Assembly: GCF_004025325.1 (NCBI RefSeq)
Contig: NZ_RSFE01000002.1
Location: forward strand, 62,001-126,000
Direction of reading: 5' to 3'
Source: Pseudidiomarina gelatinasegens
Lineage (GTDB): Bacteria > Pseudomonadota > Gammaproteobacteria > Enterobacterales > Alteromonadaceae
Length of the DNA: 64,000 bases
Position numbers and translations under genes: made by a program. This document shows positions 21,823-37,376 of the stretch, piece after piece; the stretch's first letter is position 1; each line of letters opens with the position of its first letter. The notes below the pieces were generated by a model. That model was not told where the DNA came from. It saw only the letters and a list, made by a program, of their open reading frames with translations, and made no database searches.

Positions 21823-24800
21823 CTAGTCTTCGTACGGCGGCTTCGGAGGGAAATTACGCCGCACAATATAAAACAGTAGAGGTACGAAGAAGATAGCCAG
21901 TATTGTACCGCCCAGCATACCCCCAATGACACCAGTACCGATGGCTTGACGGCTCACAGCACCAGCGCCGGTAGATAGCGCCAGTGGCAACACGCCAAAG
22001 GTGAAGGCTAATGAGGTCATCAAAATAGGGCGTAAGCGCAGGCGTACTGCCTCCAAGGTTGCTTGCAGCAACTCTTTGCCCTGGGCTTGTAAATCTTTCG
22101 CAAATTCAACAATTAGAATCGCGTTACGTGCCGAAACCCCGACAGTGGTTAATAGACCCACTTGGAAATACACGTCGTTTTCCAAACCGCGCAGGGTGGC
22201 TGCGATAACGGCACCGAGAATACCTAGTGGTACCACAAGCATAACCGCGAATGGAATCGACCAGCTTTCATAAAGTGCTGCCAAGCATAAGAACACAATG
22301 AGCAATGACAGCGCATATAACAATGGCGCTTGATCGCCGGAGGTACGCTCTTCTACAGAAATACCAGTCCATTCATACCCGATACCGGTAGGTAATTGAC
22401 CAATAAGCTCTTCCATTTTCAACATTGCATCGCCCGAAGAATAGCCTGGTGCTGCTTCGCCTTGAATATTCATTGCTGGAACACCGTTATAGCGCTCAAG
22501 GCGCTGTGGGCCAAAGTCCCACTCGGTATCAGCGAATGATGAAAACGACACCATGTCACCGCTGGCATTGCGGACATACCATTTCCCGATATCATCAGGG
22601 GTCATGCGGGCTTCTGGAACACCTTGCATATAAACCTTTTTAACCCGGCCACGGTCAACAAAATCGTTCACGTAGGTGGTACCAAAGGCGTTCGACAAGG
22701 TTGCATTGATATCGCTAATGCTCAAGCCAAGCGCTTTGGCTTTTTCATAGTCCACATTAATACGCAGTTGCGCGGTGTCTTCTAAGCCATTCGGACGCAC
22801 ACCGGTTAGCATTGGCTCCTGAGCAGCCATGCCCAGCAATTGGTTCCGTGCTTCTAATAATCCTTCATGGCCAAGCCCGCCGCGGTCCTGAAGATACAGG
22901 TTAAAGCCACTGGCGGTGCCGAGCTCCGGAATGGATGGCAAATTAAAGGCAAATACCATGGCCTCACGAATCTGACTAAAGTAACCGAACGCGCTGCCAA
23001 TAATTGCGTCAATTTGTAGCTCAGGGGAGGTCCGCTCATCCCAATCGGTTAAACGTACGAACGCTAATCCTGAGTTTTGACCTTGGCCGCTAAAGCTGAA
23101 ACCAACAACCGAAAAGACTGAGCGAATACCTTCAGCTTGATCAAGGAAGTAGTCTTCTATTTTGGTCATGGTTTCGCGTGATTGTTCTTGCGTTGCACCT
23201 GACGGCAATTGCATTTGCGTCAAAAATACACCACGGTCTTCATTCGGGATGAAAGAACTTGGCATACGCGCAAACAGGAATCCGACAACAACCACAAGTG
23301 CCAGGTAAATCACCACAAAGCGCACACTACGCTTAATGATTGACTGCACCGAGTTGGTATATTTATTGGTTGCGCGGTCGAGCATGCGGTTAAACCAACC
23401 TAATATTCCTTTAGGCTCATGGGTATGATCTAAAGGCTTAAGAATGGTTGCGCACAGTGATGGCGTGAAGATTATCGCGACCAATACTGACAGCGACATG
23501 GCTGAGATAATGGTGATTGAGAACTGACGGTACACCGCACCGGTTGAGCCACCGAAGAACGCCATGGGTACGAATACAGCTGCCATAACCAGGCCGATAG
23601 CAACCAAAGCACCGGTTATTTGTTGCATTGATTTAATGGTGGCTTGGCGCGGCGAGAGTTTTTCCTCACTCATTAAGCGCTCAACGTTTTCAACCACAAC
23701 AATGGCATCGTCCACCAACAAGCCGATAGCGAGCACCAGACCAAACATGGTCAAAGTGTTGATGGAAAACCCGAGCACCGACATGATGCCGAAGGTACCG
23801 AGCAATACGACTGGAATAGCCAACGAAGGAATAATCGTTGCCCGTAAATTCTGCAAGAAAATAAACATCAGGATGAACACCAAGATCACCGCTTCAAACA
23901 GAATCTTGACCACTTCCTGAATCGATATCTCTACGAAGGGCGTGGTGTCATAGGGAATCACCAACTCAACGCCTTCTGGGAAGAACTGCTGCAGTTCAGC
24001 CAACTTTGCTTTCACCGCTTCAGCGGTATCTAGCGCGTTCGCGCCGGTAGCTAAGTTTACTGCAAGACCACTGGCTGGTTGTCGGTTGTAGCGCGCGACA
24101 ATGCCGTAGCTTTGGCCACCGAGTTCAACTTCAGCTACATCGGCAACGGTAACCTTTGAGCCGTCAGGGTTGACTCGTAATAAAATATCGTTGAACTGCT
24201 GCACGGTTTCAAGGCGTGTTTGTGCAATAATTGACGCCGTTAAACGTTGATTCTCAACCGCCGGGGTGCCACCAATCTGGCCAGCTGCTACTTGGTTGTT
24301 TTGTTCACGTAATGCCAGAACAACATCGGTGGTACTCATGTTGTAACGCACGAGTTTGTCCGGGTCTAACCAAATGCGCATTGCATAAGGCGCACCAAAC
24401 AAGCGCACATTACCAACACCTTTGGTACGGCTAATCGGGTCTTGCATATTGCTGGCAATGTAATCACCCAAGTCAATCTGGTCGATGTCCGGGTTGTCAG
24501 ATATTAATGCGGCAACCAGCAAAAACGAGTTGTTTGACTTGGCGACGACTAAACCTTGATCTTGCACGGCTTGCGGTAGTAAGGGCAGGGCAAGTTGCAG
24601 CTTATTCTGCACCTGAACTTGCGCGATATCTGCGTCGGTGCCGGCTTCAAAGGTCAAGGTGATGCTGGCATTACCTGCCGAATCACTGGTTGAAGAAAAA
24701 TATTTCAGGTTATCAATACCATTCATATTCTGTTCAATAACCTGCGTAACACTTTCTTCCAAGGTGGCCGCAGTCGCACCAGGATAACTGGCGTTAATTT

Positions 24801-24930
24801 GCACAGAAGGTGGCGCGATCTCCGGATACTGCTCGATAGGTAGCTGCGTTACCGCAAGCCCGCCTGCAAGCATGATCACAATCGCGATTACCCAAGCAAA
24901 TATTGGGCGATCAATAAAAAACTTTGCCAT
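21823..24930 (-). CDS. RND efflux pump inner-membrane transporter, AcrB/MexB family
   Basis: This 1035-residue HAE1-family transporter is about the same length as AcrB (1049). It starts [17 protein letters not shown] and has 12 predicted transmembrane helices and two large periplasmic porter loops. The proton-relay pair is Asp-Asp in [12 protein letters not shown]. It would export drugs, bile-type detergents or dyes by proton antiport together with the fusion protein just upstream (4-base gap) and an outer-membrane channel such as TolC, which is not here. The operon is controlled by the promoter/operator at 26121-26149 and closed by the terminator at 21764. Confidence 0.95.
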
Positions 24931-24933
24931 GAT

Positions 24934-26079
24934 TTACTTCACTTCTTCAGTTTTGACAGGCATACCGGGCTGAATTTTCTGCAGGCCCTCGACAATGACT
25001 TGGTCGCCAACGTTTAAACCGTCAGTAACAACCCAATCACTGCCGACTGTGCGCTCAACGGTTAAGTATCGTTGCTCCACTTCACCCTTTTCGTTAACGA
25101 TAAAGGCAATGGCACGGCCGCGAGGGTCACGGGTTACACCCGTTTGCGGGGCCAAAATAGCATTCTGTAGAGCACCGGTGCCAACTTCTGCACGCACATA
25201 CATGCCCGGTAGGATAGAGTGGTTGGCGTTTTCTAAACGTGCACGGAGCGTAATCGCGCTGGTTTGCGGATCAACGGTTACTTCGTTGAACAGTAATTCA
25301 CCGGTAGTACTATAATTACCGTCTTCACCAACGCGAACTGTGACTTCAGCGCGGTTGTCATCATCAGTAACAATGCGCCCATCAGTTATTGCAGCCTGCA
25401 ATTTAAGGTAATCACTGGTGCTTTGAGCAATGTCGACATAAATAGGGTCAAGCTGCGTGATGGTGGTCAAAGCTTGCGCCTGACCAACGCTGAGCAACGC
25501 CCCTTCGGTAAGTTGTGAACGCCCGATACGCCCTGATATTGGCGCTTTAACACGGGTATACTCAAGGTTAAGTTGGGCGCGTGACAGGTTTGCTTCCGCA
25601 ACTTTTAACTGAGCCTCAGCTTGCAAGTAGGCCGCTTCGGCCTCATCAAAATCTTGTTGGCTAATGGCTTTATCATTCAAAAGGCCTTTGCTACGCTCAA
25701 AACGCGACTTGCTGGCTTTAACGGCGGCTTTGGCACGGGCAATTTCAGCTTCGGCGCTAGCAAGCTCAGCTTGATACATGGCGGCGTCAATTTGGTACAG
25801 TTGTTGACCTGCTGTGACCATTGAGCCTTCTTCAAACAGGCGTTCTTTCATGATGCCGTTTACTTGCGGGCGTACTTCCGCCACACGGAACGCACTTGCG
25901 CGCCCAGGAAGAGTAGTGGTTAAATCAACACTACGACTGGCAATGGTCACTATACCCACAGTCATTTGTTGTTGCTGGCCGGCGCCTGAACCAGCTTGCT
26001 CAGCATCGCCACAACTAGCAAGTAATATAGAACTTGCTAAAACAGATACGAACAAAGGCTTACGAAAACGTTGTTGCAT
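24934..26079 (-). CDS. RND efflux periplasmic adaptor (AcrA/MexA family) lipoprotein
   Basis: This 381-residue membrane-fusion protein has a lipobox (LLASC, Cys near residue 23). A lipoyl/barrel-sandwich half (VRPQVNGIMKERLFEEGSMV) comes next. An alpha-hairpin of about residues 95-165 is rich in Ala/Glu/Lys. The second lipoyl half (YTRVKAPISGRIGRSQLTEG) and the beta-barrel follow. It bridges the RND pump and the outer-membrane channel. It is first in the two-gene operon and is read from the AcrR-type promoter upstream. Confidence 0.94.
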   Translation of the reverse strand: MQQRFRKPLFVSVLASSILLASCGDAEQAGSGAGQQQQMTVGIVTIASRSVDLTTTLPGRASAFRVAEVRPQVNGIMKERLFEEGSMVTAGQQLYQIDAAMYQAELASAEAEIARAKAAVKASKSRFERSKGLLNDKAISQQDFDEAEAAYLQAEAQLKVAEANLSRAQLNLEYTRVKAPISGRIGRSQLTEGALLSVGQAQALTTITQLDPIYVDIAQSTSDYLKLQAAITDGRIVTDDDNRAEVTVRVGEDGNYSTTGELLFNEVTVDPQTSAITLRARLENANHSILPGMYVRAEVGTGALQNAILAPQTGVTRDPRGRAIAFIVNEKGEVEQRYLTVERTVGSDWVVTDGLNVGDQVIVEGLQKIQPGMPVKTEEVK

Positions 26080-29173: not shown

Positions 29174-29204
29174 CGCGCTAACTTCTGGTTAGCGCGTTTT
29201 TTTT
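29174..29204 (+). terminator. rho-independent terminator after the second M28 peptidase
   Basis: CGCGCTAAC (29174-29182) pairs with GTTAGCGCG (29188-29196), followed by eight T's. It lies between convergent genes. The opposite strand lacks a clean T-run, so it mainly serves the plus strand. Confidence 0.92.
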
Positions 29205-30204
29205 ATTCATCAGGTAATTCAGCGGCTATTTTTTGCAAGGCTTCAAGGCCATGCAAATCGGTAGGGAACAATGGCAGATAAACTCGCGGCAAGTCGGAAA
29301 ATTGTTGCTCGATTTCGGTGCGGTAAATACCTTCTTGTTGGCGCCGTTGCGCAAAAAAAGCGCTGTCGACTTCAGCCGGTAAATTCCGATTAATCACCAA
29401 GCCAGCAATTGGCAATTTCTCTGCTTTTAATGCAGTCACAGCTCGGCCAGTCTCAAGAATGGGTAATTTTTCTGGGGTCAGTACAAACACCAGTGCAGTT
29501 TTTTCGGTGTCGGTAAGCACATGCCGCGTACGATGAAACAGGCGCTGACGCTGCAATAAGGTTTCAGTAATTTCTGCCGTGCGGTCGTCCATGTTGGCAG
29601 TTTCGTGTTTGGCAGGGTCTGCCATTGGGTTCGTAATATCTTTTCCCGCTTTGGGTGATAGATGGTCGAGTACTCCTTCAAGTTGCTTCGCCTTTTGGCT
29701 TTGCCTTAGTAGCCCTTGCGTCCATGCCGCCATAGCTTCGGGCAGTGCTAATAAACGCAGGGTATGCCCAGTTGGTGCTGTATCAAAAATGACGATGTCA
29801 TAGGTTGCAGGCGCTTCATCAATAAGGCGTGCAATGCGTTCTAATAACGCAGCTTCTTGTGCGCCTGGAGACTGCTGGGTAAGGCGCATTTGGCGTTCAA
29901 TTTCAGGAAACATATCCGGCTTGCTAAAACGTTTCATGGTACGCATAACACGGGAGATGTGGGCTTCAACCTCACGATCGGGATCAATTTCCAATGCGTC
30001 GACGCCCGCAGCGACACGGGTTACGGTGTCGCCAATTTTTTGGTCGAAGGCATCAGCTAAGCTATGGGCTGGGTCGGTCGACACAAGCAGTACGTGCCTA
30101 CCGTGGTCTGCTTGCTGCAAAGCAATAGCCGACGAAATTGTGGTTTTACCAACACCACCTTTACCGCCAACGAAAACAATATTCTTGCTCTGTAAATTAA
30201 ACAT
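29203..30204 (-). CDS. ArsA/GET3-family ATPase
   Basis: This 333-residue single-copy P-loop ATPase of the GET3/TRC40/ArsA type has the deviant Walker A GGKGGVGKTT (residues 13-22), the STDPAHSLADAF switch I block and the A-loop-like DTAPTGHTLRLL. The protein has no cysteine at all. It therefore lacks the metalloid-binding Cys of ArsA and the zinc CxxC that joins eukaryotic Get3 dimers. No ars genes are near, so an arsenite pump role is unlikely. It is last in an operon with cstA and a small Cys-Cys-tail protein (15-base gap). A chaperone or energising partner for a membrane protein is inference. Confidence 0.88.
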   Translation of the reverse strand: MFNLQSKNIVFVGGKGGVGKTTISSAIALQQADHGRHVLLVSTDPAHSLADAFDQKIGDTVTRVAAGVDALEIDPDREVEAHISRVMRTMKRFSKPDMFPEIERQMRLTQQSPGAQEAALLERIARLIDEAPATYDIVIFDTAPTGHTLRLLALPEAMAAWTQGLLRQSQKAKQLEGVLDHLSPKAGKDITNPMADPAKHETANMDDRTAEITETLLQRQRLFHRTRHVLTDTEKTALVFVLTPEKLPILETGRAVTALKAEKLPIAGLVINRNLPAEVDSAFFAQRRQQEGIYRTEIEQQFSDLPRVYLPLFPTDLHGLEALQKIAAELPDE

Positions 30205-30218
30205 GAAACGTACTTCTT

Positions 30219-30491
30219 TTAGCAGCAGCGAAAGCCATCAAGCGGGGAATGTTCCATACCCATGCGTAAATGCCAGTCGTGAAAGCGTTCAAGCAGCAAA
30301 GGTTGCAGCTCAAGCGTGTAATAAGAAGCGGGATTCGGTACGCCCATGAGTTCGGAAAAAACCAATAACATGAATAGGTCGTCCTCATCCCGCTTGGCGC
30401 GTGCAATGGCTGAACGATAGGGCGCGTTATACACGTTGGTCGCGTAGTCATTGGCCTTTTTTAACCATTCAGTAATTGCACGTATCTTCAT
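30219..30491 (-). CDS. small protein with conserved Cys-Cys C terminus ('cory-CC-star' type)
   Basis: This 90-residue cytoplasmic, mostly helical protein begins MKIRAITEWLKKANDYATNVYN and ends GMEHSPLDGFRCC, with the two Cys as the last residues. I recall NCBI using the label 'cory-CC-star protein' for small proteins ending this way next to ATPase or CstA genes. The name is from memory and the function is unknown. I place the start at the ATG at 30491 (AAGGTAA upstream), 14 bases after the cstA stop. It is followed by the ATPase gene after 15 bases. The terminal Cys pair could bind metal or form a reversible disulfide. Confidence 0.8.
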   Translation of the reverse strand: MKIRAITEWLKKANDYATNVYNAPYRSAIARAKRDEDDLFMLLVFSELMGVPNPASYYTLELQPLLLERFHDWHLRMGMEHSPLDGFRCC

Positions 30492-30504
30492 ATCAAAATT
30501 TACC

Positions 30505-32190
30505 TTATTGCTCTTCAACAGCGTTAGCTTTGTTTTCACGGCGCAAGCGCGTGAGTGTGCTTGCAGCCTCTAGTGCAATCCAAATTGCGGCAATCAGCAC
30601 AATTAAATCAAGGCTAAACAAGAACCAATCAGATTTATGGTAAAAGCCCATTAGTTGAATTAGCAACGCGTAAATGGTCATTACCAATAAAAATAGCAAT
30701 GGTAATAACGTCACGTACATTGGGCGACCCAACTTCACCAGCATGGTGGTTATCACCAGTAAGGTCAATCCAGCTAATAGTTGATTGGTGGTGCCGAATA
30801 ATGGCCAAATCAGCAGGCCTCCAGAACCATCTGCGCCACCAGCACCGAAGGCCAATAGCAGGCACGACGTAACGGCAAGAAGAGTGGCGGGTGCCGCTTT
30901 TTCCATCCAGCGAATGTTATAGATATTACCCCATTCTTGGAAAATATAGCGCTGTAAACGCAGCCCGGTGTCCATGGTCGTTCCGGCAAACAACACGGCC
31001 ATTACCGTCAGTAATGTTTGTGCTATATCGACATCCAGACCAATACCGTTTTGCAGAATGTTTGCACCACCTTGCACAAATGCGGCAACACCGCCTTGTC
31101 CAAAGCTGTGATACACCGCCTGCCAATCAGCAAGAGTTGCAAAACCAGCGGTTGCGGCAATGATGGTGGCTAGTGACAGAGAGCCTTCGCCGATAGCGCC
31201 AAAGTAGCCAACAAATCGTGCGTCAGTTTCTTTATCAAGTTGTTTAGAGGTGGTGCCTGAAGCTACCAATCCATGGAAACCTGAAATTGCGCCACACGCT
31301 ATCGTCACGAATAATAAGGGGACTAAGCTCGGGGTGCCTTCTGGTGTGTTGGTATTAAAAGCTGGAGCAACCAGCTCAGGGCCGCTCAACAACACGGCAC
31401 CGTAAACCAAAATCAAACCGATAAATAACTGCAGACCATTAATGTAGTCACGCGGCTGTAGTAGCATCCATACCGGAAGTAACGATGCAATTGCAGCATA
31501 AAAGAACAAAACCAAAATCCACTGCGCATTATCAGAAATACCAAAAACCGTTTCTGGCAGTGAAATTGGCATTGCAGGGCCTGCATAAATCAGGGCATAC
31601 AACGCAATAACGCCGATAATTGAAACTGTGCCTAGATTCATCCATTTGCGGAAAATAAACTGGCCGATAATTAAGGCGACAAAAATAGCGCCCCACACCG
31701 GTACCACAGAACTTGGGAAGTTAATAAGTAAGCCAGAAATTGCGGTAGCAAATACTGCGTTTACCATCAGCAACACAAGGAAAATAACAATCATGAATAA
31801 GCTTTGTGAGCGCTTGCCGACCACGTCACCGGTTAATGCACCGATAGAGCGCGCTTTATTGCGGTTTGATGCCCAAATAGCGCCTGCATCGTGCACCCCG
31901 GCAAAGAAGATTGTACCGAAAATAACCCATAAGAAGGCCGGAACCCAACCCCAAATGACCGCAATTGCCGGGCCGATAATCGGTGCAGCACCGGCTACAG
32001 AGGTGAAGTGATGACCCCAGAGTACGTATTTATTCGTCGGAACAAAATCTACACCGTCTTCAAACTCGTGTGCAGGCGTTCGAAAGTTCGGGTCAAGTTT
32101 GTATATTTTTTCAGCAACATATTTTGAATAGAATACATAACCTAAAAACATCGCACCTAAACCGAGTAACATCAGCATAATTGCATTCAT
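30505..32190 (-). CDS. cstA: CstA-family carbon starvation protein / pyruvate or peptide transporter
   Basis: This 561-residue polytopic membrane protein of the CstA family contains PTNKYVLWGHHFTSVAGAAPIIGPAIAV, FAGVHDAGAIWASNRNKARSIG and many further helices. It is shorter than E. coli CstA (about 700) and resembles the compact CstA type. E. coli CstA and BtsT import pyruvate or peptides under carbon limitation. GGGTAAAG precedes the ATG. It heads a minus-strand operon with the Cys-Cys-tail protein and the GET3-like ATPase, and is divergent from the ABC exporter (126-base gap). Confidence 0.92.
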   Translation of the reverse strand: MNAIMLMLLGLGAMFLGYVFYSKYVAEKIYKLDPNFRTPAHEFEDGVDFVPTNKYVLWGHHFTSVAGAAPIIGPAIAVIWGWVPAFLWVIFGTIFFAGVHDAGAIWASNRNKARSIGALTGDVVGKRSQSLFMIVIFLVLLMVNAVFATAISGLLINFPSSVVPVWGAIFVALIIGQFIFRKWMNLGTVSIIGVIALYALIYAGPAMPISLPETVFGISDNAQWILVLFFYAAIASLLPVWMLLQPRDYINGLQLFIGLILVYGAVLLSGPELVAPAFNTNTPEGTPSLVPLLFVTIACGAISGFHGLVASGTTSKQLDKETDARFVGYFGAIGEGSLSLATIIAATAGFATLADWQAVYHSFGQGGVAAFVQGGANILQNGIGLDVDIAQTLLTVMAVLFAGTTMDTGLRLQRYIFQEWGNIYNIRWMEKAAPATLLAVTSCLLLAFGAGGADGSGGLLIWPLFGTTNQLLAGLTLLVITTMLVKLGRPMYVTLLPLLFLLVMTIYALLIQLMGFYHKSDWFLFSLDLIVLIAAIWIALEAASTLTRLRRENKANAVEEQ

Positions 32191-34677: not shown

Positions 34678-35991
34678 ATGCTTAAATTATTCTCTCGATT
34701 TCGTTCAGTTTGGATGGCGGAGCTTGTCCGTCGTCATGAATTGCAAAATGGCTTTCAACGCGCCGACGCGATAGAACAGCAAGCGCGGCAGCTTCCAACC
34801 ATGGAACAGCGCGTATTTAAACGCGCTGAACTATTGGCCGCACGACTTGGATTAGTCCATCAACTCCGACTTTGGGATCATTTCCGCCGCCTTATCGCTA
34901 TTGTATTGTCGTTACTGGCAGTGCTTGGTGCTGTTGCACTGGTGCGTGGCACCCTAACCGTCGCCGAACCCATTTCATTAAGTTACGCCCTAATGATGTT
35001 ATTGGGTTTGCACGTGATTTTGTTCTTCCTATGGTGTGTTTCTTTGTTTATCAAAGATAGCTTTGGCTGGGTAGGGCGCATTTCATTGTGGGGTTTAGAA
35101 CACATTGGTCAGCGCGATTACAACCAGCAGTTCAACAACACCTTGCTGACTATTGCAAACCAATATCGATTAACCAAACCGGCAGGTGCAGCGCTAACGC
35201 ACGGGTACTGGACTTTGTTTATGTTAATGGTTTGGTTCGTGTTGTTTTTCCACCTTAGCACCAGTGCGTATGTGTTTACGTGGGCCACTACAATTTGGCC
35301 AGCGGACACTTTGCAAACTTGGGTGAGTGTTATCGGCTTTCTACCGTCTCTATTTGGCATAGATGCTCCCTCGGTAGAGGCTTTATGGGATAGTCCGGAG
35401 GCCTCGGCGCAGCTTTCGGCGGGACGTTGGCTACTGAGCTGTGTGATTATTTATGGCGTGGTGTGGCGAGGCCTTTTCTTACTGGGGGCAATTGTCGTGC
35501 TATTAGCTCGTGTGCGACGTATGAAAATTGATCTGACGCTGCCCGGTTATGCGCCCATTATAAGAAAACTCACCATTTCGGCGGCAACCGAACTGGTGGA
35601 TGCCGATAGTGATGTTTCCGGTATGTACAATGTGCAGCAGCGTACACCAGAACCTGGGCATGGTGAGCTTGTTATCAGCCTTGACCACGAAGCGGATCAA
35701 CACTGGTTGCGTGAACATCAGGCTGAATCCTGGTTTGGTGGGGTAATAGCGCGCACCGAAGAAAAACAACGGTTGCTTGATCGGCTTTCGGAACATCCGG
35801 TTGCAAAGTTAACAGTTCGCGTGAATGGCCAATTGACGCCCGACCGCGCCGCCCTGCGATTTATTACCTTGCTACGCCAATATTGTACCGATGTGCAAGC
35901 GCAGTTGGTGACCACCGAACGCGCGGATGAACAGCGTCTTAAGCATTGGCAAGACGGCCTAACTGAGGAGGGCGTTGTATGGAATCAATAA
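34678..35991 (+). CDS. DUF2868 domain membrane protein
   Basis: This 437-residue protein has an N-terminal helical region and about four or five transmembrane segments (around 70-90, 100-125, 175-200, 255-280). A C-terminal cytoplasmic domain of about 150 residues ends near the GTPase start. It matches the DUF2868 family, which I know only as the partner of DUF3482 GTPases. The final 13 bases overlap the GTPase gene, so the two are translationally coupled. A membrane platform or channel controlled by the GTPase is a reasonable guess; no function is established. Confidence 0.82.
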   Translation: MLKLFSRFRSVWMAELVRRHELQNGFQRADAIEQQARQLPTMEQRVFKRAELLAARLGLVHQLRLWDHFRRLIAIVLSLLAVLGAVALVRGTLTVAEPISLSYALMMLLGLHVILFFLWCVSLFIKDSFGWVGRISLWGLEHIGQRDYNQQFNNTLLTIANQYRLTKPAGAALTHGYWTLFMLMVWFVLFFHLSTSAYVFTWATTIWPADTLQTWVSVIGFLPSLFGIDAPSVEALWDSPEASAQLSAGRWLLSCVIIYGVVWRGLFLLGAIVVLLARVRRMKIDLTLPGYAPIIRKLTISAATELVDADSDVSGMYNVQQRTPEPGHGELVISLDHEADQHWLREHQAESWFGGVIARTEEKQRLLDRLSEHPVAKLTVRVNGQLTPDRAALRFITLLRQYCTDVQAQLVTTERADEQRLKHWQDGLTEEGVVWNQ

Positions 35992-37376
35992 ACGCACTCA
36001 TGCTTGCCGTTGTTGGGCACACCAATACGGGTAAAACATCGTTAATGCGTACCTTGTTGCATGACAGTCAGTTCGGTGAGGTTGACTCTCGCCCCAGCAC
36101 GACCCGTGAAGTTACCAGTATTGATGTTGAGGCTGATGGGCAAACCCTGATTCGTTTATTTGACACGCCAGGATTGGAAGCTGGCTCTGATTTGTACGAA
36201 CACTTGGTACAAAGTGAGTCAAACTTCCGCCACGATGGCCCGGCTCAGGTTCGTCATTTTCTGAATACAATGGCCGCTGGGCATGAGTTTGAGCAAGAAT
36301 CTAAAGTGCTACGTCAGTTATTAAAATGTCATGCAGCACTTTATGTTATTGATGTGCGCGATCCGGTTTTACCGAAGTATCAAGATGAGTTAAGTGTGCT
36401 CGCGCGTTGCGGTAAACCTATTTTACCCATTCTAAATTTTACTGGGCAAAAACCGAATCATGTTAACCAATGGAAGCTGGCACTGACCAAAGTAAACTTG
36501 CATGCACACATCGAATTTGATGCGGTAAGCCCGCCAGATGGTGGTGAATCGATTTTATTCAACCGTTTAAGCGCCATTGTACCGGGCTTTCACCAACAAC
36601 TTGAGCAATTAGCGCAATATCGCCAACAACAGCGTGAGCAACGTTTAGATACCGGATTGACACAAATCGCTGAGCTTTTGGTTGATGTTGCTGCCTTCCA
36701 TGAACACATAAAACCGAACACTGAAGATGCGCAACTGAAGCCGATTATTGAATCCATGCAAAACCTTGTGAAACGACGGGAGCGCAATTGTGTAACCGAA
36801 ATGCTGGCGCTCTATGCGTTTCGACTTGAACACGTTCGCCTGCAACAACTGCGGCTGAACGACGGTCAGTGGAAAGACGATTTATTTGAAATAGATACAT
36901 TGAAAGAGTTCGGCATTAAAGCCGGTGTTGGGTTAGGCAGTGGCGCCGCAATAGGCGCTGGCTTTGACTTAATGGTTGGCGGTGCAAGCTTAGGTGCCGG
37001 AACAGCGATAGGTGCCGCTATTGGTGGCGCTTGGCAAGGTTGGACGCACTATGGCAAAAAACTGGTCGGGCACTTAAAAGGTGAACGTGAGCTGATTGTT
37101 GACGATGAGATTCTTAAACTGCTGACTTTACGGCAGATGAATTTATTGCAACAGCTGGCAACCCGCGGCCATGGTTCGCAAGCATTGTTAATGGTCACCC
37201 AGTCCTCAAAATTGCGTGAACAATTTTTACGTGCTTTATCAACACGATTAAAGTTAGCAAGGCGCAACCCACAGTGGTCGAGTTTAAATCAGCGTAGCTT
37301 CGTGCGCGACGCGCAGCGTCAGGCCTGTGTAAGCGACGTAACCGAGTTATGCCGAGGCTTCTGGAGCCAAAGTTAA
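35979..37376 (+). CDS. Era/TrmE-like GTPase with DUF3482 domain
   Basis: In this 465-residue protein the GTPase domain (1-205) has G1 GHTNTGKT (13-20), a TTRE switch and G3 DTPG (62-65). The G4 position reads NFTG (153-156) instead of NKxD, so guanine specificity is uncertain. A helical DUF3482 region follows. A striking Gly/Ala zipper at about residues 312-354 (GIKAGVGLGSGAAIGAG ... AIGAAIGGAWQG) could insert in a membrane. A helical tail ends it. It overlaps the DUF2868 gene by 13 bases, the conserved pairing of these families. Function is unknown. Confidence 0.85.
   Translation: MESINALMLAVVGHTNTGKTSLMRTLLHDSQFGEVDSRPSTTREVTSIDVEADGQTLIRLFDTPGLEAGSDLYEHLVQSESNFRHDGPAQVRHFLNTMAAGHEFEQESKVLRQLLKCHAALYVIDVRDPVLPKYQDELSVLARCGKPILPILNFTGQKPNHVNQWKLALTKVNLHAHIEFDAVSPPDGGESILFNRLSAIVPGFHQQLEQLAQYRQQQREQRLDTGLTQIAELLVDVAAFHEHIKPNTEDAQLKPIIESMQNLVKRRERNCVTEMLALYAFRLEHVRLQQLRLNDGQWKDDLFEIDTLKEFGIKAGVGLGSGAAIGAGFDLMVGGASLGAGTAIGAAIGGAWQGWTHYGKKLVGHLKGERELIVDDEILKLLTLRQMNLLQQLATRGHGSQALLMVTQSSKLREQFLRALSTRLKLARRNPQWSSLNQRSFVRDAQRQACVSDVTELCRGFWSQS

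Follow-up and report, generated by a model that had tools for sequence, protein, structure and literature searches.

CstA is a widespread nutrient importer that in Escherichia coli works poorly without a tiny protein of unexplained action. Deletion of ybdD lowered pyruvate uptake to 20 per cent of wild type and deletion of cstA lowered it to 13 per cent, the two effects were not additive, and the authors, while allowing for indirect effects, treat CstA and YbdD as forming one transporter (PMC5847655). A triple knockout of cstA, ybdD and btsT is reported to have failed to grow under the conditions of that study. A survey of bacteria and archaea described 26 cases in which CstA occurs with an ArsA homologue, and in 24 of these a protein named CstX is present as well (Castillo & Saier 2010, PMC2963123). 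The locus considered here belongs to the latter kind and lies within a stretch of 64,000 nucleotides of Pseudidiomarina gelatinasegens contig NZ_RSFE01000002.1 (hereafter the window, meaning the whole stretch analysed), where a CstA-type transporter gene is followed by a gene for a 90-residue protein ending in Cys-Cys, a member of the family cory-CC-star (cory in what follows), and by a gene for a GET3/ArsA-like ATPase. The operon itself has already been described; the new element is the parallel that cory shows with YbdD and YjiX of E. coli and with a group of proteins that end in Cys-Sec (Sec, selenocysteine).

In the operons of the 2010 survey the trees of the CstA, CstX and ArsA homologues largely match, ars genes are absent, and single-domain homologues do not conserve the three cysteines that E. 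coli ArsA needs; CstX was proposed to couple CstA to ATP hydrolysis (PMC2963123). The window operon is a further case of this operon type, sharing with it the three kinds of gene, the length of the small protein (about 90 residues for CstX in the archaeal cluster, where it was called a single-transmembrane-segment protein, as the window protein is not known to be), a single-domain ATPase of about 330 residues, and the idea of a functional complex. Matched by position and length, cory-CC-star is most likely the CstX of that work. In the main text of the survey YbdD, YjiX and DUF466 (PF04328) occur zero times, and the passages on cysteine concern ArsA only. Searches of the literature, with subscription journals outside their coverage, found no link of cory or CstX to YbdD or YjiX through the tail, no paper under the name cory-CC-star, none on BtsT with YjiX, and no experimental test of the coupling proposal. 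A first-pass annotation made from the letters of the window had held that this set of genes was without a described function; that stands as far as experiment goes but not as regards proposals, since the one made in 2010 is close to the annotation's own and a family name already exists for the small protein.

The gene set and its conservation

The three genes run head to tail on the minus strand from 32190 to 29203, in the order cstA, small gene, ATPase gene, and are bounded by a hairpin:

30505 to 32190, minus strand: cstA-type transporter, 561 residues, PF02554, of the short type of about 560 residues
30219 to 30491, minus strand: cory-CC-star protein, 90 residues, ending in GFRCC, NF041419
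29203 to 30204, minus strand: GET3/ArsA/TRC40-family ATPase, single-domain, 333 residues, no Cys, TIGR00345
29171 to 29199, scored on both strands: terminator-like hairpin between the ATPase gene and a convergent M28 peptidase gene

Gaps of 13 bases (30492–30504) between cstA and the small gene and of 14 bases (30205–30218) between the small gene and the ATPase gene separate the open reading frames (ORFs), which are present as the operon-like set that the first-pass annotation had read, and its assignment of the CstA and GET3/ArsA families was borne out by profile matches. The small protein scores 134.3 bits against NF041419 (curated cut-off 80), with residues 12–90 falling on profile positions 2–80 of 80, and has no match in Pfam, PF04328 included. 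The transporter reaches 456 bits with PF02554 (gathering score 27). Its score with PRK15015, 237 bits, is far below the cut-off of 1188, and the name of the E. coli pyruvate/H+ symporter therefore cannot be transferred to it. The ATPase scores 275.9 bits with TIGR00345 (cut-off 135) and 158 bits with the ArsA profile TIGR04291 (cut-off 650). An alternative GTG start would extend the small protein to 106 residues (to 30539) and cause its gene to overlap cstA. In the simple scan that scored the hairpin, the minus strand showed no promoter-like site between 29000 and 32500. The host genome comprises 2.47 Mb in 28 contigs.

The predicted fold of the window CstA is of LeuT type (mean predicted local distance difference test score, pLDDT, 80.8; best match a LeuT entry at E 2e-6, with a template modelling score, TM-score, of about 0.5), and CstA is listed among the LeuT-fold families (PMC10862720). 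A search by sequence for a solved CstA structure found none, its two matches at E 0.3 both being to an unrelated enzyme.

Together cstA, the small gene and the ATPase gene form a conserved unit. A scan of genome_contigs confirmed at least 585 relatives of the small protein, and the best 80 loci were kept; their nearest records are Pseudidiomarina species, and all 80 are presumably Proteobacteria, judging from the names in the record titles. Among these best 80, an ArsA-type ORF lies downstream of cory in every one and a CstA ORF lies upstream in 78, the two others being a locus that stops at a contig end (L057) and one with an unrelated gene upstream (L047). The expected co-occurrence of the three families is thereby seen, with no independent scattering in the sample. 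Beyond this set, cory relatives on plasmids comprise one Bacillota record and five alphaproteobacterial records; the three of these six that were read, those of Paracoccus, Pseudochrobactrum and the Bacillota member Cytobacillus, carry the same three genes. When 398 genomes of the phylum were sampled, seven had cory, two of which were already in the set of 274 genomes considered below. A match below the cut-off was seen in Haloferax volcanii, and a scan of viral contigs gave no relative of cory among 34 pattern matches.

Variants of the gene order occur. On a plasmid of Cytobacillus spongiae (L091:4690–4977) an additional protein of 95 residues, with no NCBIfam match, is encoded between cstA and cory, and in a Natronospirillum metagenome-assembled genome (L025:4306–9097) a second cstA lies directly 3' of the ATPase gene, giving the order cstA-cory-ATPase-cstA.

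The Cys-Cys tail and its parallel in YbdD and YjiX

Cysteine occurs in the small protein at positions 89 and 90 only, and this is the paired cysteine of the operon, as the first-pass annotation had pointed out, given that the ATPase has none and the cysteines of CstA stand apart at 299 and 443. The terminal pair is present in 94 of the 94 cory proteins read (that of the window, those of the 80 loci and 13 others), where it is preceded by R in 59, K in 30, G in three, S in one and V in one; loss of the pair in homologues, the outcome that the annotation had set against its own reading, was not seen. The small protein is the sole CC-ending product among 194 mechanical ORFs of at least 60 residues in the window, and none of the 434 mechanical ORFs of 250 residues or more that lie outside the three families at the 80 related loci has this ending, so that the tail is not a matter of chance. 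None of the 94 tails ends in Sec, and no search was aimed at Sec beyond those tails. In the predicted structure (mean pLDDT 78.8; predicted TM-score, pTM, 0.52) a helix at residues 2–49 and another at 63–76 are followed by a tail without helix or strand that bears Cys89–Cys90.

The same arrangement of a CstA-family transporter gene followed by a gene for a small protein with a Cys-Cys ending is found twice in E. coli, where ybdD follows cstA and where yjiX and then yjiA follow btsT, so that at btsT a P-loop nucleoside triphosphatase (NTPase) gene also comes next. YbdD ends in GGARCC and YjiX in GGMRCC; 23 of the 24 PF04328 members read (the E. coli pair and 22 others) end in CC, and the other ends in CPC. 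The E. coli loci differ from that of the window in that YbdD and YjiX belong to PF04328 and not to cory, the transporters are about 700 residues long, and YjiA is annotated as a P-loop GTPase.

Some epsilonproteobacterial DUF466 (PF04328) proteins end in Cys-Sec, according to their authors the first C-terminal selenocysteine, and a redox activity likened to that of thioredoxin reductase was inferred for them (PMC4607533, in the main text of which ‘carbon starvation’ occurs zero times). The NCBI name for these proteins is KCU-star, NF033934 (PMC13188914, PMC9312934), a profile with which YbdD scores 70 bits and YjiX 62 bits, both below the cut-off of 85. KCU-star selenoproteins are like cory in placing two adjacent thiol or selenol residues at the extreme C-terminus, but they have Sec in place of the last Cys and are related to YbdD and YjiX rather than to cory. 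CstA-type transporters are thus repeatedly accompanied by a C-terminal thiol pair, which is found in two families without detectable sequence homology.

The distribution of the two families is complementary. Among 274 genomes of the window's class CstA was found in 42, PF04328 in 22 and cory in six; cory and PF04328 occur together in none of the 274, and CstA is present in all 28 genomes that have either. PF04328 is likewise missing from 11 of 11 cory genomes (the six of this set and five of the other sample), and the window's own genome yielded no match to it. The PF04328 gene adjoins CstA in 20 of the 22 genomes. The 14 remaining genomes with CstA comprise nine in which it is partnerless and five with contig-end fragments or a broken gene. 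The broken cstA, L154 (G251:C1:110030–111041), is interrupted by TGA stops in frame, and its genome has no match to cory or PF04328.

In a tree of 62 CstA sequences the 25 long-type transporters form a single clade with a support of 1.0; of these, 24 have a PF04328 partner in the genome and one (L138), a contig-end fragment whose partner lies outside view, is tagged as long-type. The 26 cory-type sequences fall in another part of the tree, although the support for the cory cluster is modest (0.56–0.81), and the separate placement of the two types indicates that the partner follows the CstA lineage. Two partnerless CstA, those of genomes G121 and G236, fall inside the cory-type part beside a cory-type sequence (support 0.95), a placement that points to loss of the partner. 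Taken by position, ending and distribution, cory seems to correspond to YbdD and YjiX.

Homology between cory and PF04328 is not claimed. An hhalign comparison of 89 cory with 24 PF04328 sequences returned probabilities of 0.2 per cent (global) and 2.7 per cent (local), and a C-anchored alignment of the two profiles was matched by 61 of 400 column shuffles (77 of 400 against four E. coli-type sequences).

The cysteines of the transporter itself were also compared. Cys299 of the window CstA lies in the motif C-G-A-x-S-G-F-H and is C in 83 of 83 cory-type and 25 of 25 long-type sequences; in the model it stands at a helix break where residues 298–300 have a pLDDT below 50. Cys443 is C in 81 of the 83 cory-type sequences, whereas the long-type sequences have W in 24 of 25 and a gap in the remaining one. 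Cys299 was considered as a thiol partner for the tail and was dropped, six of nine partnerless CstA (eight of 11 with two more) also carrying it and the confidence of the model being low at this point; its conservation stands as an observation only.

Proposed roles of the tail and the ATPase

By analogy with YbdD, the small protein would most likely be a required subunit of CstA, with the thiol tail as its active part. The whole model, that of a CstA importer with a small thiol-tail subunit and an auxiliary ATPase, is given a probability of roughly one half. Under it the operon would encode a CstA-type importer of LeuT fold, which might take up pyruvate, some other small acid or a peptide, and a small soluble subunit dedicated to that importer. 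This subunit would do the job of YbdD, docking on the cytosolic side of CstA and presenting a flexible C-terminal arm on which the Cys-Cys pair would be the working element. The pair might most likely act as a redox-active dithiol whose reduced state is required for transport and, next most likely, as a ligand for a soft metal, while a dimer of the GET3-like ATPase could hold the small protein and use ATP to dock it on CstA or strip it from there. The gene order, the conservation of the set, the constant tail, the mutual exclusion with PF04328 in the sampled genomes and the association of the ATPase with cory were observed directly, whereas we infer that the proteins touch, that the tail works by redox chemistry and what the ATPase does.

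Several observations weigh against this account. Given that 80 of the 94 tails come from the best 80 of at least 585 relatives, the counts lean on close relatives, and loss of the tail in distant members could have escaped notice. With no detectable homology between cory and PF04328, the word counterpart rests on position, tail and distribution, and a comparison of cory with solved folds in the PDB gave five matches, the best at E 5.5 and none meaningful. The PF04328 gene is not beside CstA in two genomes (G028 and G136), nine CstA genes have neither partner adjoining, as do two partnerless copies in cory genomes, and eight of these 11 partnerless CstA keep the equivalent of Cys299, which is therefore not specific to partnered transporters. 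An Aquisalimonas metagenome-assembled genome (L047:1493–4133) has cory and the ATPase without CstA on its 9.1-kb piece, and genome G171 (L156, G171:C39) has cstA-cory followed by a gene that is not the ATPase, with no full-length ArsA-type match genome-wide. Since these last two loci pair the small protein separately with the ATPase and with CstA, it behaves as would be expected of a linker.

The ATPase of the window has an intact P-loop (GGKGGVGKTT) and intact switch motifs (DPAHS and DTAPTGH) and contains no cysteine, as the first-pass annotation had noted, and being Cys-free it cannot use the metalloid cysteines of ArsA or the CxxC of Get3. It shares its fold family, P-loop and switch motifs with both. 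It differs from ArsA, which has two domains with As(III)-binding cysteines and ArsB as its partner, in being single-domain, in lacking Cys and in standing with CstA; it differs from Get3, which carries a zinc-binding CxxC at the dimer interface, in lacking that motif and in having CstA for a partner instead of tail-anchored clients. Among 93 ATPases (that of the window, those of the 80 loci and 12 others) 47 have no Cys, 31 have one, nine have two and six have three or more, counts that may be off by a few, at least one of the 93 rows probably being a wrong reading and some being short readings. CxxC occurs in none of the 93, and no Cys column is conserved among them, the commonest such column being Cys in 12. 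The lack of a conserved metal or redox cysteine is thus general in the sample, but the total absence of cysteine is not, and with only 47 of 93 Cys-free the latter was rejected as a meaningful trait of the family.

Because no ATPase cysteine is conserved, the tail is unlikely to be joined to the ATPase by a disulfide or a Cys-metal-Cys bridge across the family, and the metal- or redox-bridged contact suggested in the first-pass annotation is not favoured, the same tail being found in YbdD and YjiX. It is more likely that the tail serves the transporter, because the YbdD/YjiX loci share it without an ArsA-type ORF: in the stretches fetched, a number of them cut short by a contig end, neither an ArsA-like nor a YjiA-like ORF was found at any of the 22 PF04328 loci, and yjiA of E. 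coli is the single case seen of an NTPase gene adjoining that family. A full-length single-domain ArsA-type ATPase is present at the cory locus in 10 of the 11 cory genomes and in none of 15 other genomes searched (nine with partnerless CstA and six of the 22 with PF04328), one of which, G026, has a two-domain protein. The ATPase is best seen as auxiliary, with docking, removal and energising all possible for it and the insertion of CstA least supported.

In the explanation already in print (Castillo & Saier 2010) the small protein is a coupler through which the hydrolysis of ATP powers CstA, so that a secondary transporter would have become ATP-driven. The operon and the published correspondence of the trees of CstA, CstX and ArsA homologues (PMC2963123) speak for it, as does an ATPase at all but one of the cory loci just counted, but the predicted fold is that of a LeuT-type secondary carrier, the E. 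coli relative BtsT is annotated as a proton symporter, and in G171 cstA-cory stands without an ATPase gene, so that the proposal is held to be doubtful. A role in metal handling, in which the Cys pair would be a soft-metal ligand and the ATPase would load or remove the metal, is rated unlikely. A vicinal Cys tail beside an ArsA-family P-loop ATPase and the adjacency of yjiX and yjiA in E. coli would fit such a role; ArsD, which works with ArsA, offers a precedent for soft-metal cysteines, and YjiA belongs to a group of metal-binding GTPases. The 93 ATPases nonetheless have neither a conserved Cys nor a CxxC, the described operons are without ars genes (PMC2963123), and the Cys-Sec version of the tail points to redox chemistry and not to metal (PMC4607533).

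It might also be supposed that the ATPase works in bacteria as Get3 does, inserting or targeting CstA with the help of the small protein as an adaptor. Its best match by sequence in the PDB is 3zq6 (in the record a putative arsenical pump-driving ATPase, which we take to be an archaeal Get3), followed by ArsA and Get3 chains. However, the predicted C-terminus of the small protein is a helix-free tail and not a membrane anchor, the segment matching the client helix of Get3 varies in length and has a slightly lower fraction of hydrophobic residues than that of 3zq6 (0.33 against 0.41, a weak comparison), and the loci sampled for long CstA proteins showed no ArsA-type ORF. This explanation is considered very improbable, and nothing positive was found for the idea, raised in the first-pass annotation, that the ATPase inserts CstA.

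There is some reason to carry the favoured model of a thiol-tail subunit further, tentatively and as a possibility rather than an expectation. CstA-type transporters might in general depend on a C-terminal Cys-Cys or Cys-Sec arm as an essential redox part, one that two or more unrelated families of small proteins, acquired separately by different CstA lineages, provide in trans, and in the cory lineage the GET3-like ATPase might cycle the arm on and off. If true, this would be a LeuT-fold carrier whose gating depends on a thiol arm brought in by another protein. Should the need be met by two unrelated families with the same two-Cys ending, that ending becomes the part that deserves study, and the parallel makes the tail testable in E. 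coli. It would also give a testable role to GET3/ArsA-like ATPases in operons without arsenic genes.

Other genes of the window

Elsewhere in the window, an AcrB-type efflux pump gene (PF00873) lies within 21823–26079, and the gene beside it (24934–26079) resembles, by eye, one for a membrane-fusion protein. Genes for a DUF2868 protein and a DUF3482 GTPase occupy 34678–37376 as an overlapping pair.

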